DNA of 64,000 nucleotides from Fragilariopsis cylindrus CCMP1102 (taxonomy: Eukaryota > Bacillariophyta > Bacillariophyceae > Bacillariales > Bacillariaceae). A program made the translations under genes and the position numbers. Under the pieces are notes generated by a model. That model was not told where the DNA came from. It was given only the letters and a program-made list of their open reading frames with translations, and made no database searches. Shown here one piece after another: positions 36,191 through 60,404 of the stretch. Location of the stretch: NCBI GenBank assembly GCA_900095095.1, contig FMBT01000303.1, positions 248,001 to 312,000 on the forward strand, read 5' to 3'. Within the stretch, counting starts at the first letter, position 1, and every line of letters starts with the position of its first letter.

Positions 36191-36303
36191 GGGAACAACC
36201 ATACCAACATGACAGCACCGCTTCCCGTCTACTCAGCAAAGTTAAGCATGTTTGTGCCTGGTTAGTACTATGGTGGAGACCATGTTCCCAGGTGTTGTTC
36301 TCA
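36191..36303 (+). rRNA. 5S ribosomal RNA
   Basis: The sequence has the eukaryotic 5S landmarks in order: CCATACCAACATGACAGCACC, TCCCGTCTACTCAGC, AAGTTAAGC, GTGCCTGG, TTAGTACTATGG and CCCAGGTG. The ends pair: GAACAAC at 36193-36199 with GTTGTTC at 36294-36300, extended by a G-U and a G-C. Internal stems CCTGG/CCAGG and ATGG/CCAT also form. A TTTTT terminator follows at 36307-36311. At about 112 bases it is a few bases shorter than the usual 118-120, mainly in the helix IV/V arm. It stands alone; no other rDNA is nearby. Confidence 0.9.
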
Positions 36304-37792
36304 TATATTTTTATCTTTATTGAAAAAATTCTTTATTTTGGGGGCTCTCTCTTAAAGTTTACTTACAATATAGTAACCACCCCTCAAACCACTCATATTC
36401 TATTATTCTCTGTCTAACAACTGTTTAGTTGGATTTTAACTGGAGTAATTGGAGGAGGAGCTACATCAACAACAACAACAACAACAATTAATTTTCTTAT
36501 TCTTGTTGAAGCATAATGTAAACAAAAGCATAACTACTACCATTGAATGCCATTCTCAAGTCGAACTGTGCACACAGTGAGAAATGCAAAAGAGAGAAGA
36601 AAATATGCACCCATGCATAATATTTAGTATAAAAATTACAGCTAAACTTATGATAATGTATTGTATCTAAATATGGCACTTGAAAGAATCATGTAGGTTT
36701 TATGTTATGATTTTTAGAAGTGGTTCCATCCATTATCAATGGGTATATTTCACGTGTTTTCCACATAAAAATCACATGGGGGATGGCAAGTGTGTGTGCG
36801 TAAAGAAAGTTTTACACCACCCTCTATTTGCTATTTGAACACATAATCTTAAAGATAAAAAGAACGTAAATTGTGGGTTAAAATTTGGAATAGTGTTCAT
36901 ACATTATTTGCTCCCATCTAAAATTTTGTCCTCCTACATACTGATAATCTACTGTCCATCATTGTGGGATGCAAGAAGTGCCAGTAGCGCAAATTCATTG
37001 CAGAACTGCAAAAGCTCATATATGAAACTCTATATCTGAATTTCTCAGTGTGTGTGTGTGTGGTACACAAACACATATTCAATTTGTATGATAATAACAT
37101 CCTGTCATGTAACAGGCTCTCCTTATTTTCAATGTGTATCTTTCAGTTTCACTATGCAAACAACAGAACAGAACAGCAGTCACTCATTGTTGTAATCACA
37201 ATTAGTCAATATCATTGTTGTAATCACAATTGTGTGGTGGTCTCATTTGGAGGTTGGATTATAACTAATTACAGAGGTAAAGATCTAACGGCAATGATGA
37301 ACTTTCTCTGATTATTGTGGTAGACAATGGTGTGGAATTTCCAGATCTAAGATGAGCAACAATAATGGAAATGCTATTTATAAAGTCCATTTCAAGCCAT
37401 GATATTTTTTCCAACTGAGGGATTATAAAACCAAAGAAAATCTGATGTAGAGATGAGATAATTTTCTGTGCTGAGTGTGTGTATTTATTAAGTGGTACAT
37501 ACAGGTAATTTACACCCATGTTACCATTAACTAATAATACTATAATATCCTCATCATCTGTAAAATTTAATATTAATTAGGGGAACAAAGAAGGATAATA
37601 TTTCTCTACATCTGTTGTGTCTTTGCCTAGGCTCGAACAGTTTTTACAGTGAAAATAAAAGTAAAGGTGGTGGTTTTCATATCACTTCTGCAAAAGTTAT
37701 ATGTGTGGGTGCAAAAATAAAATCATAATAGCCATTGAATGGATGGATAGTGGAGAATTTTACATTGCAAAAGGTATGTACATCAAACAAAC
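36304..37792. other. Long intergenic region downstream of 5S rRNA
   Basis: No protein gene supported. Contents include a (CAA)n tract at 36468-36484, a (GT)n tract at 37051-37062 and a direct repeat of ATTGTTGTAATCACAATT near 37186 and 37214. Several short ORFs have no conserved content. Confidence 0.5.
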
Positions 37793-37799
37793 AAAAAAA
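37793..37799 (-). terminator. RNA polymerase III terminator of tRNA-Cys
   Basis: Seven consecutive T residues on the minus strand begin four bases after the 5' half of the tRNA, as expected for a pol III transcript. Confidence 0.75.
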
Positions 37800-37802
37800 C
37801 AA

Positions 37803-37881
37803 TCTGCAATCGAACGCTCTACCACTGAGCTATAGATGCGTTTCACAGCATCCAGACGGGATTGAACCATCGACCATTCGA
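37803..37881 (-). tRNA. tRNA-Cys (GCA), circularly permuted gene
   Basis: Read on the minus strand, the 3' half (37881-37847) comes first, then a 7-base spacer GTGAAAC, then the 5' half (37839-37803). Joined in tRNA order, the parts form every arm. Acceptor GCATCTA pairs with TGGATGC (one G-U). The D arm is GCTC/GAGC with loop AGTGGTA. Anticodon stem TTCGA pairs with TCGAA around loop TTGCAGA, anticodon GCA. The T arm is GATGG/CCGTC with loop TTCAATC. The variable loop is five bases, and position 73 is U, the universal tRNA-Cys discriminator. The 7-base spacer makes the acceptor stem a hairpin in the precursor. Outside, the leader TTGTT complement (37889-37893) pairs with trailer TTGTT, and the leader GCA with loop TGC, giving a relaxed bulge-helix-bulge. 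No CCA is encoded. Confidence 0.9.
37822..37868 (-). promoter_or_regulatory. Internal A and B boxes of tRNA-Cys in reversed order
   Basis: A box TAGCTCAGTGG lies at 37832-37822 and B box GGTTCAATCC at 37868-37859 on the minus strand. Because the gene is permuted, B precedes A in the direction of transcription, opposite to normal tRNA genes. Confidence 0.8.
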
Positions 37882-38053
37882 AATATGCTTGTTGTTCAGT
37901 TGGAGAAACGCGGAAAGTTAGAGGTTATAAACTCAATATAATGATTCTGCGAGATCAATTACACGCCTAAATTCTACTCGTTGTTTTCCATAGGATTTTC
38001 TTTGTTCGTGCCAGCATTTCTAACTCGCCGATGATTACGCCGAATATCTTTGA

Positions 38054-57369: not shown

Positions 57370-57435
57370 CTAGAGAGGAGTGAATGATAAATCATCTGAA
57401 CCATTGTCCTTATGAAACTTTCCAAAATCAGCTGC
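57297..57435. repeat. Exact 20-base direct repeat spanning a gene 3' end
   Basis: AACTTTCCAAAATCAGCTGC occurs at 57297-57316 and again at 57416-57435, 119 bases apart. The second copy is inside the coding end of the acidic repeat protein; the first lies beyond its stop, as if a fragment of the gene end was duplicated. Confidence 0.85.
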
Positions 57436-60404
57436 TTCTACAATGACGTTACTGCCAACAGTCTGCTTGATTGCTTCGCACACACTTTTAAATCCAAGTA
57501 CGTCCTGCTCAGATACAAGATCTTCAACGTTGACGATAGCTATTTCGTTCACCTCGTCGTCGTTGTTGACGCCGTCGACCTCATTGTCTCCATTATTATC
57601 TGGTGTAACTACTGAAGCTGTTCGTATTGCCACCGGTGTTGTATGACCCACTACGATAAGTTCTACGTCATCATCGGCGTTGAACTCTTCTTCTTCTTCT
57701 TCTTCTTCTTCTTCTTCTTCTTCTTCTTCTTCTCTGTCTACGATAACATCACCGTGCTGTTCGTCTACAGCTTCGACGTTTTGGACTGGAACATCAACGA
57801 CTGGTTGTTGATTTAACAATAAGAGGTTATGTGGTTCAATACCACCTTGTACCGCATCTCCATCACCATCACCATCACCACCACCAACGACGTTTCGATC
57901 TTGAACGACTGCAGCTTCGACGTTTTGGACTGGAACGTCGTTATCGTCGGAAAAGAAGACCTCTCTTAAAGCAACTTCAATTCTTGGCATGATATCTTCT
58001 TCCGCCATTGTAACAAAATTAGTTACACCCAAAATTTCGGCCACTGCAATAAGGAATCGCATCCCAGCCCCTTTTGTTATTTCGTATACTTGATTAGTAA
58101 ATATGACTAGTTGACGATCAGTTACAGCGATTAAAGAATTCTCCTTCTTATTCAAATAATGTTCGTTCTTGATATTATCAAGAATAGTTGTGAATACAGT
58201 GTTGCGATACACTTGAATTTCAGAAAAACGGACATCGTTTGTTGTAGTGTCAAAGTCGGTGATGTACTCTTCTTCTTCTTCTTCGTCGTCATCTTCCTGT
58301 TCGTCTACGATAACTTCTTCGTCTACGATAACATCACCCTGCTGTTCGTCTACGATAATTTCTTCGCCATCGGCGATGACTCGAGCATCAACGATAACTT
58401 CTTCGTTTACGAGAACATCACCCTGCTGTTCGTCTACGACAATTTCTTCGCCATCTACGATAATTTCTTCGCCATCGGCGATGACTCGAGGAGCAACGAC
58501 GTTTCGATCTTGAACGACGACAGCTTCGACGTTTTGGAATGGAACATCAACGATAACTCCTTCTTCGTTTCGATCTTGAACGACGACAGCTTCGACGTTT
58601 TGGAATGGAACATCAACGATAACCTCTTCGTCTACGATAACATCACCCTGCTGTTCGTCTACGATAATTTCTTCGCCATCGGCGATGACTCGAGGAGCAA
58701 CGACGTTTCGATCTTGAACGAAGACAGCTTCGACGTTTTGGAATGGAACATCAACGATAACTCCTTCTTCTTCTTCTTCTTCGTCGTCATCTTCCTGTTC
58801 GTCTACGATAACTACTTCGTCACCGGCGATGAACTCTTCTTCTTCTTCGTCTACGATAACATCACTGACTGCAGCTTCGACGTTTTGGAATGGAACATCA
58901 ACGATAACTCCTTCTTGTTCTTCTTCTTCTTCTTCGTCGTCACCTTCCTGTTCGTCTACGATAACTTCTTCGTCACCGGCGATGAACTCTTCTTCTTCTT
59001 CGTCTACGATAACTTCTTCGTCAACGGCGATGAACTCTTCCTCTTCTTCGTCTACGATAACATCACCTTCTTGTTCGTCTACGATAACTTCTTCGTCATC
59101 GGCGATGAACTCTTCTTCTTCTTCGTCTACGATAACTTCTTCGTCATCGGCGATGAACTCTTCTTCTTCTTCGTCTACGATAACATCACCGTCCTGTTCG
59201 TCTACGATAACTTCTTCGTCATCGGCGATGAACTCTTCTTCTTCTTCGTCTACGATAACATCACCGTCCTGTTCGTCTACGATAACTTCTTCGTCATCGG
59301 CGATGAACTCTTCTTCTTCTTCGTCTACGATAACATCACCGTCCTGTTCGTCTACGATAACTTCTTCGTCATCGGCGATGAACTCTTCTTCTTCTTCGTC
59401 GTCACCTTCCTGTTCGTCTACGATAACTTCTTCGTCACCGGCGATGAACGCTTCTTCTTCTTCGTCTACGATAACATCACCGTGCTGTTCGTCTACGATA
59501 ACTTCTACGTGATCGGCGTTGACTGGAGGAGCAACGAGGACTGGAGGAGCAACGACGTTTCGATCTTGAACGACTGCAGCTTCGACGTTTTGGATTGGAA
59601 CATCGACGACTGGTTGTTGATTTAACAATAAGAGGTTATGTGGTTCAATACCACCTTGTACCGCATCTCCATCACCATCACCATTACCAACGACGTTTCG
59701 ATCTTGAACGACTGCAGCTTCGTCGTTTTGGACTGGAACATCAACGACTGGTTGATTTAACAATAAGAGGTTATGTGGTTCAATACCACCTTGTACCGCA
59801 TCTCCATCACCATCACCACCACCACCACCAGCACCGACGACTACTTGAACGGGAATGCGAATATCAAATGGAACTTGAACGGGAATGTGAATTCTAAATC
59901 GATTGATAGTCTCAAGTTGATACAACAATAAGCCAGGGTTGTTTACTTGTTCAGCATTAGTAGGACCATTGACTGCGACAGCTGGACCTTCAATGACGAC
60001 TAGAGGAGCACCTTCAACGGCGTCGTGAGCAACAACATCTGGAAGAGCACCAAGCGCAACATCTGGAAGAGGTTCCCAGACGACCAGAGTACCTCTAGCT
60101 CTTTTTTCTTCTTCTCTTTTTTCTTCTTCTCTAACTCTTTTATCTTTTCTACGGCATGCCCCAGATTTTCTTTTTCTTTTTCTAACTAAAACGTACCCAT
60201 TGGCAGCGGCAGCTTCTACTGCCAATTGCATCAACATAGGTTGCGGCTGTTACAGAATTACGATATGTTAAATATATGTGAGACGAATATATTATATGTG
60301 AGACAAACATTTTTTTACTTTACAATGAATGGAATGCGTATTTGAGATGATGGTAACTGATAAGAATAACTTACATTGTTCGATGCATCAGCGTCGGTAG
60401 GCAT
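57370..60404 (-). CDS. Acidic tandem-repeat protein, unknown family
   Basis: A 10-codon first exon (60375-60404, MPTDADASNN) is spliced across a 127-base intron (GTAAGT...ACAG) to exon 2 (57370-60246), giving about 969 residues. After a basic stretch (RKRKRKSGACRRKDKR, a likely nuclear signal) come tandem repeats. One type is EPHNLLLLNQ(Q)PVVDVPVQN(V/D)EAAVVQDRNVV; the other is many copies of VIVDEQ(E/D)GDVIVDEEEEEFIADDEE. A folded-looking segment near 57960-58240 (EIQVYRNTVFTTILDNIK...TNQVYEITKGAGMRFLIAVAEILG) and a C-terminal segment (VLGFKSVCEAIKQTVGSNVIVE) interrupt them. No family recognised. The repetitive codons leave a long stop-free frame on the other strand, which I treat as a shadow. 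Confidence 0.75.

Follow-up and report, generated by a model that had tools for sequence, protein, structure and literature searches.

The window, the whole stretch of 64,000 nucleotides analysed here, carries on its minus strand a putative tRNA-Cys(GCA) gene whose two halves stand in permuted order. Reading from 37881 to 37803, the sequence gives the 3' half (35 nt), the spacer GTGAAAC and then the 5' half (37 nt), and it thus bears out an earlier note on this DNA, which had placed the 3' half before the 5' half with a 7-base spacer between them. The features of the locus are listed below; C83 and C595 are the contig labels of the window copy and of a second copy, respectively.

37793..37799, minus strand: run of seven T after the 5' half, likely RNA polymerase III terminator (from the sequence)
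37798..37802, minus strand: trailer UUGUU, outer helix of the bulge-helix-bulge (from the pair table and the fold)
37803..37839, minus strand: 5' half of the tRNA-Cys, positions 1-37, plus the A at 37803 (A38, or else the first base of the trailer)
37805..37807, minus strand: anticodon GCA (from the sequence, and from ARAGORN on the joined halves)
37822..37832, minus strand: A box TAGCTCAGTGG, downstream of the B box (genome pattern match C83:285822-285868)
37840..37846, minus strand: intervening sequence GTGAAAC, 7 nt, between U73 and G1 (from the sequence)
37847..37881, minus strand: 3' half of the tRNA-Cys, positions 39-73, the upstream part in the transcript; U38 would be 37882 if the cut is canonical
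37858..37868, minus strand: B box GGTTCAATCCC, upstream of the A box (same genome pattern match)
37882..37888, minus strand: leader GCATATT, in which GCA pairs with U33G34C35 (central helix) and the last bases form the 3' bulge; the same in C595
37889..37893, minus strand: leader AACAA, outer helix with trailer UUGUU (from the pair table)
37910..37923, minus strand: CTCTAACTTTCCGC, at the position that the upstream element TAAAATT takes in ordinary tRNA genes; degenerate in this copy and intact in C595, with motif runs in conflict

Joined, the halves form a 72-nt cloverleaf in which the acceptor stem (7/7, one G.U), the D stem (4/4), the anticodon stem (5/5) and the T stem (5/5, one G.U) are all paired and which has U33, the anticodon GCA and U73; the four paired stems, GCA and U73 agree with the earlier note. 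The body reads GCAUCUA...UGGAUGCU, and its acceptor stem, GCAUCUA/UGGAUGC, closes with a G1-C72 pair. ARAGORN calls the joined 72-mer tRNA-Cys(gca); in the unjoined DNA of the window it finds neither a tRNA gene nor flanking halves. The Rfam tRNA model scores 27.5 bits (cut-off 29) on 37779-37839, that is, on the 5' half, the trailer and sequence further downstream. A T stretch lies downstream of the permuted gene and none lies in the spacer, in agreement with the claim that a pol III terminator follows. A descriptor of the permuted cloverleaf, which requires fully paired acceptor (7/7), T (5/5) and anticodon (5/5) stems, no fewer than 3/4 pairs in the D stem, TTCRA in the T loop and GG in the D loop, matches the window once, at the permuted gene, and matches nowhere in 150 dinucleotide-preserving shuffles (19.2 Mb, both strands). 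It is not tRNA-specific as such, since six sites in 1.0 Mb of viral loci preselected for a comparable order of boxes match it too, and YrlA-like matches overlap at least two of these six (L117). Elsewhere in the window, a 5S rRNA gene (36191-36303, plus strand, 63.6 bits) is the only Rfam match at gathering level; a distance of 1.5 kb separates it from the permuted gene, which is on the other strand. At 57370-60237 the minus strand holds a long reading frame of acidic repeats, mirrored by long frames on the plus strand, which is either a tandemly repeated protein or low-complexity DNA.

The genome had been described as stramenopile-like, and its silicon transporters agree with this. The family PF03842 gives 27 exon-level matches, the best at 756.9 bits. 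Among the best 120 of 1070 matches to one of these proteins, the top two are 98% and 92% identical, the named ones (Pseudo-nitzschia, Nitzschia inconspicua, another Nitzschia, 'Bacillariaceae sp.' and Cylindrotheca) fall at 59-73% identity, one 'Cosc...' stands at 45% and one record is labelled as bacterial. From these sequences, we take the host to be a raphid pennate diatom close to Bacillariaceae. The contig pairs C331/C90, C581/C268 and C401/C648 carry silicon transporter genes with near-equal scores and exon layout, which suggests diverged haplotypes that were assembled separately.

When the 72-nt tRNA was used as a DNA query against the whole genome, four pieces were found at two loci, the window and C595:12947-13024. 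The second gene is also permuted, with a 6-nt spacer divergent from that of the window. Its body, CCAACUA...UGGUUGGU, departs from the window body only by two double changes within the acceptor stem, G1-C72 to C1-G72 and U4-A69 to A4-U69, both of which keep the pairing. Overall, five base pairs differ between the copies and four of them are still paired, two of two in the acceptor stem and two of three in the leader/trailer helix. The leader motif GCATATT is shared, the remaining leader and the spacer diverge, and a T run lies downstream of the C595 copy as well. When the window was compared with C595, of whose 70 kb the first 40 kb were used, one match of 98 nt was obtained at the gene (90.8% identity); the other matches, six rows of 36-41 nt, fall at three places in C595. 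The flanks of the two copies are thus unrelated, and the copies are therefore not alleles. Judged from sequence, the conservation of structure between two diverged copies supports a function for the permuted tRNA-Cys, and compensatory changes between two diverged paralogues amount to natural evidence for selection on the permuted form. The same comparison bears on the idea that the arrangement is an assembly artefact or a contaminant. The assembly is fragmented, with 818 contigs, but the layout recurs at two independent loci with unrelated flanks, the G+C content is alike (0.368 in 40 kb of C595 and 0.395 in the window), the host contig is 575 kb long and the eukaryotic gene NMD3 adjoins the tRNA gene; we regard an artefact or a contaminant as scarcely credible.

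The pairing of leader and trailer that the earlier note described (AACAA with TTGTT and GCA with TGC, a relaxed bulge-helix-bulge) is also what the pair table gives. In the window precursor each strand has a 3-nt bulge, A36 G37 A on one and A U U on the other; the central helix consists of three pairs and a U.U mismatch, and the outer helix of five pairs in the window and four of five in C595, two of those four being kept through compensatory change. U-rich trailers do, however, pair easily with A-rich leaders. The motif, at 37/38 in the anticodon loop, is relaxed rather than strict. Of the boundaries that had been proposed, 37803 and 37881, the halves stand, whereas the cut sites appear to be one base off, after G37 (37804) and before the leader U38 (37882). 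By analogy, cleavage would fall after G37 and before a leader-derived U38; with a cut one base later, A38 is possible. The minimum-energy fold of the window precursor contains the GCA/UGC helix, with the outer helix in an overlapping register of the same leader, while that of C595 pairs the leader otherwise, and neither precursor folds unusually stably (z -1.31 and -0.50). Only one of 56 tRNAs examined by ARAGORN carries an intron, a tRNA-Ser(GCT) gene (L049, G000:C62:187470-187573) whose 22-nt intron can be read by eye with the same layout, a UUGC/GCAA central helix and two 3-nt bulges; its fold does pair UUGC with GCAA, but the 3' bulge is paired away. A candidate enzyme is encoded on C665 by a Sen2-like endonuclease gene, the single genome-wide Pfam match (E 1e-6). 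With its exons joined by hand, the gene matches tRNA_int_endo at E 1.1e-10, and the best two of its weak PDB matches are Sen2 (E 0.027-0.028).

The 67.9 Mb assembly was also searched for an ordinary gene. A pattern for the 5' half of tRNA-Cys, AGCTCAGTGGTAGAGC-N7-TGCARATC with up to three mismatches, gave two matches, both in the permuted genes, and its reversed control gave none; human, plant and yeast tRNA-Cys differ from this pattern by 0, 0 and 3 mismatches, inside the tolerance. A genome-wide pattern in permuted order returned the same two loci. The earlier note had asked whether a second, ordinary copy might fully explain the tRNA-Cys; none was found in the assembly with the 72-nt DNA query, the exact pattern or the 5'-half pattern. 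The two matches of the exact ordinary pattern are nearly identical to each other; ARAGORN calls no tRNA in them, and they were rejected. A separate Rfam tRNA search yielded 63 matches, of which seven belong to the organellar contig C419 and 56 to the remaining contigs. In those 56 ARAGORN recognizes 11 isotypes, none of them Cys, with Asp, Glu, Gln, His, Leu, Met, Pro and Tyr also absent; missing eight other isotypes, this list is therefore incomplete and no evidence for the absence of Cys. Exact patterns for other permuted isotypes, of the TAGCTCAGTTGG type and of the Ser/Leu type, had no match in the genome. Thus, as far as this fragmented and possibly incomplete assembly shows, the two permuted genes appear to be the genome's source of cytosolic tRNA-Cys. 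The organellar contig (G000:C419; L015, L016), 17.7 kb long, carries a large rRNA followed by a small rRNA and nine tRNAs (ARAGORN). Its reading frames, which we take by eye to resemble nad2, nad5, cox2 and nad7, go with its being probably part of a mitochondrial genome. Plastid rbcL has no match in the assembly and seems to be absent from it.

This apparent lack of an ordinary gene weighs against the locus being a dead remnant of a rearranged or tandem tRNA-Cys, in which the 3' half of one copy would lie beside the 5' half of another and neither would be expressed, because no ordinary tRNA-Cys was found that could supply the cell. Tandem tRNA arrays do give an identical box order, as in viral loci, and the upstream element of the window copy looks degenerate. 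On the other hand, ARAGORN finds no flanking halves, and the complete structure is retained, through compensatory changes, in two copies that are not alleles, so that a dead remnant seems to us highly improbable.

The degenerate element deserves a closer look. A motif built from 37 non-redundant upstream stretches of ordinary tRNA genes (of 40 loci), TAAAATTTG, lies near -39 of those genes, and at width 14 it exceeds the 95% level of random stretches in 27 of the 37. C595 carries it at -41, where none of 3000 random stretches scores as high (widths 12, 14 and 16; 0.0003 at width 10). The window copy has CTCTAACTTTC in its place, and a fraction of 0.41-0.55 of random stretches scores as high (widths 12-16; 0.16 at width 10). 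At width 14, an earlier run on 70 nt ranked the window copy within the top 0.4% and C595 within the top 2.1%; at width 10 the run supported neither copy (0.88 for the window, 0.50 for C595). From this sequence element, C595 may be the stronger gene of the two. Possibly, the tRNA-Cys comes from C595, with the window copy as its silent or weak paralogue; this would be a form of the explanation we favour rather than an exclusive rival. The later motif run, with a strong element at C595 and nothing above background at the window copy, speaks for it; the earlier width-14 run, with the window site in its top 0.4%, speaks against it, as does the retention in the window copy of all stems, the bulge-helix-bulge, the T run and the G1-C72 pair. 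On balance, we hold this variant to be rather unlikely.

A further reading comes from outside the tRNA genes proper. The YrlA type of non-coding Y RNA-like RNA (Rfam RF02553) has a tRNA-like module in which T arm, acceptor stem and D arm follow each other in the same permuted order; an RNA of this type would be kept for a function other than translation. YrlA is the best Rfam match at the site (29.2 bits; E 0.00015 for 301 bases searched, E 0.0028 for 5.5 kb) and scores 24.9 bits on the C595 copy, and its topology accounts for look-alikes in phage contigs. The B-box/A-box pattern occurs in at least 120 stretches of viral contigs; a script found 123 sites again, 11 of them with a perfect 7-bp acceptor stem. 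A reading as phage permuted tRNAs was dropped for L089, L116, L117, L125 and L133, five loci taken from the set of 11 with perfect pairing plus L133, since Rfam YrlA matches overlie the sites below the cut-off (24.7-44.7 bits against 69, at a loose Rfam threshold). Some other viral sites were dropped as they sit in ordinary tRNA arrays. At L089, L116, L125 and L133 a tRNA-like hairpin is found upstream of the permuted tRNA-like RNA. From their sequences, the permuted tRNA-like RNAs of the phage contigs are probably divergent Y RNA-like RNAs. The Cys-specific permuted pattern and the exact 22-mer are both absent from the viral contigs, and a similar permuted Cys pattern had no match in the genome-contig collection; diatoms would not be expected in these two collections, from which records of the host genome were perhaps left out. 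The diatom gene differs from YrlA in having a full anticodon arm with GCA and in scoring 40 bits under the gathering score of 69. Neither U73 nor an anticodon loop for Cys is known to be required in a Y RNA, and we count this against the YrlA reading. Moreover, the TROVE/Ro60 domain has no match in the genome at E <= 0.001 (two candidates scored), a search in which one of 14 control genomes matched, and a Y RNA at this place would leave the diatom with no tRNA-Cys gene found at all. We judge a YrlA-type RNA very improbable here.

We therefore return to the tRNA. In all likelihood, as judged from sequence features, the locus is a functional nuclear gene for tRNA-Cys(GCA), circularly permuted at 37/38 (type II). 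With the C595 copy, the only other one found, it would form the diatom's apparent cytosolic source of this tRNA. By analogy with known permuted genes, RNA polymerase III would read from the leader through the 3' half, the spacer and the 5' half into the trailer and terminate at the T run; the two ends of the precursor, leader and trailer, would then fold into a relaxed bulge-helix-bulge around the anticodon arm, a Sen endonuclease would cut both bulges and a tRNA ligase would join the cut ends into a circle. The circle would be opened by RNase P and tRNase Z, which take out the spacer, and CCA would then be added. For this locus we infer transcription, bulge-helix-bulge cleavage, a circular intermediate, ligation, end processing and charging. 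The mechanism is already known; it is the lineage that is new.

In a review of 2014, the permuted tRNA genes listed come from one red alga, four prasinophytes, one chlorarachniophyte nucleomorph, itself a green-algal remnant, and one archaeon, with intervening sequences of 1-74 nt; the review never mentions diatoms or stramenopiles (PMC3978253). More recent work extends the list to the green alga Auxenochlorella (PMC12633428) and to a second chlorarachniophyte nucleomorph, that of Amorphochlora (PMC4494063). The open-licence papers searched yielded no permuted tRNA from the nucleus of a stramenopile, and the claim of the earlier note to this effect holds to that extent. With the diatom, the permuted order would reach the stramenopile nucleus, and also an essential isotype for which no ordinary copy was found. 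We lean, if only slightly, towards the permuted layout being the sole cytosolic encoding of tRNA-Cys here, and perhaps in diatoms more widely. An essential tRNA would then depend wholly on a circular-intermediate pathway in a secondary-plastid lineage, through an event shared with, or convergent on, that of the prasinophyte tRNA-Cys. Several origins of permuted tRNA-Cys, as against inheritance or transfer between algae, become testable, and so does the reading by pol III of a gene with its A and B boxes reversed. In addition, ARAGORN as run misses permuted genes, and diatom annotations may therefore be short of tRNA-Cys.

Among known systems, Cyanidioschyzon merolae has 11 permuted genes of four junction types, none for Cys, with a TATA-like sequence upstream, a T stretch downstream, an unencoded CCA and a model circular-RNA pathway (PMC3978253). 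The diatom genes share with these the order of leader, 3' half, spacer, 5' half and trailer, the downstream T stretch and the unencoded CCA; in place of the TATA-like sequence there is an AT-rich element, clear at C595, and pattern searches over some box sequences give a single junction type, for Cys only. Closer parallels are found in Ostreococcus lucimarinus, O. tauri and Micromonas pusilla (PMC3978253, Table 1), with type II permuted genes for tRNA-Cys(GCA) whose intervening sequences are 26, 38 and 12 nt, respectively. The isotype, the 37/38 junction, the bulge-helix motif reported there and a short spacer (7 and 6 nt here) are alike, but those genes belong to green algae and these to a diatom, in which two diverged permuted copies, and no ordinary one, have been found.
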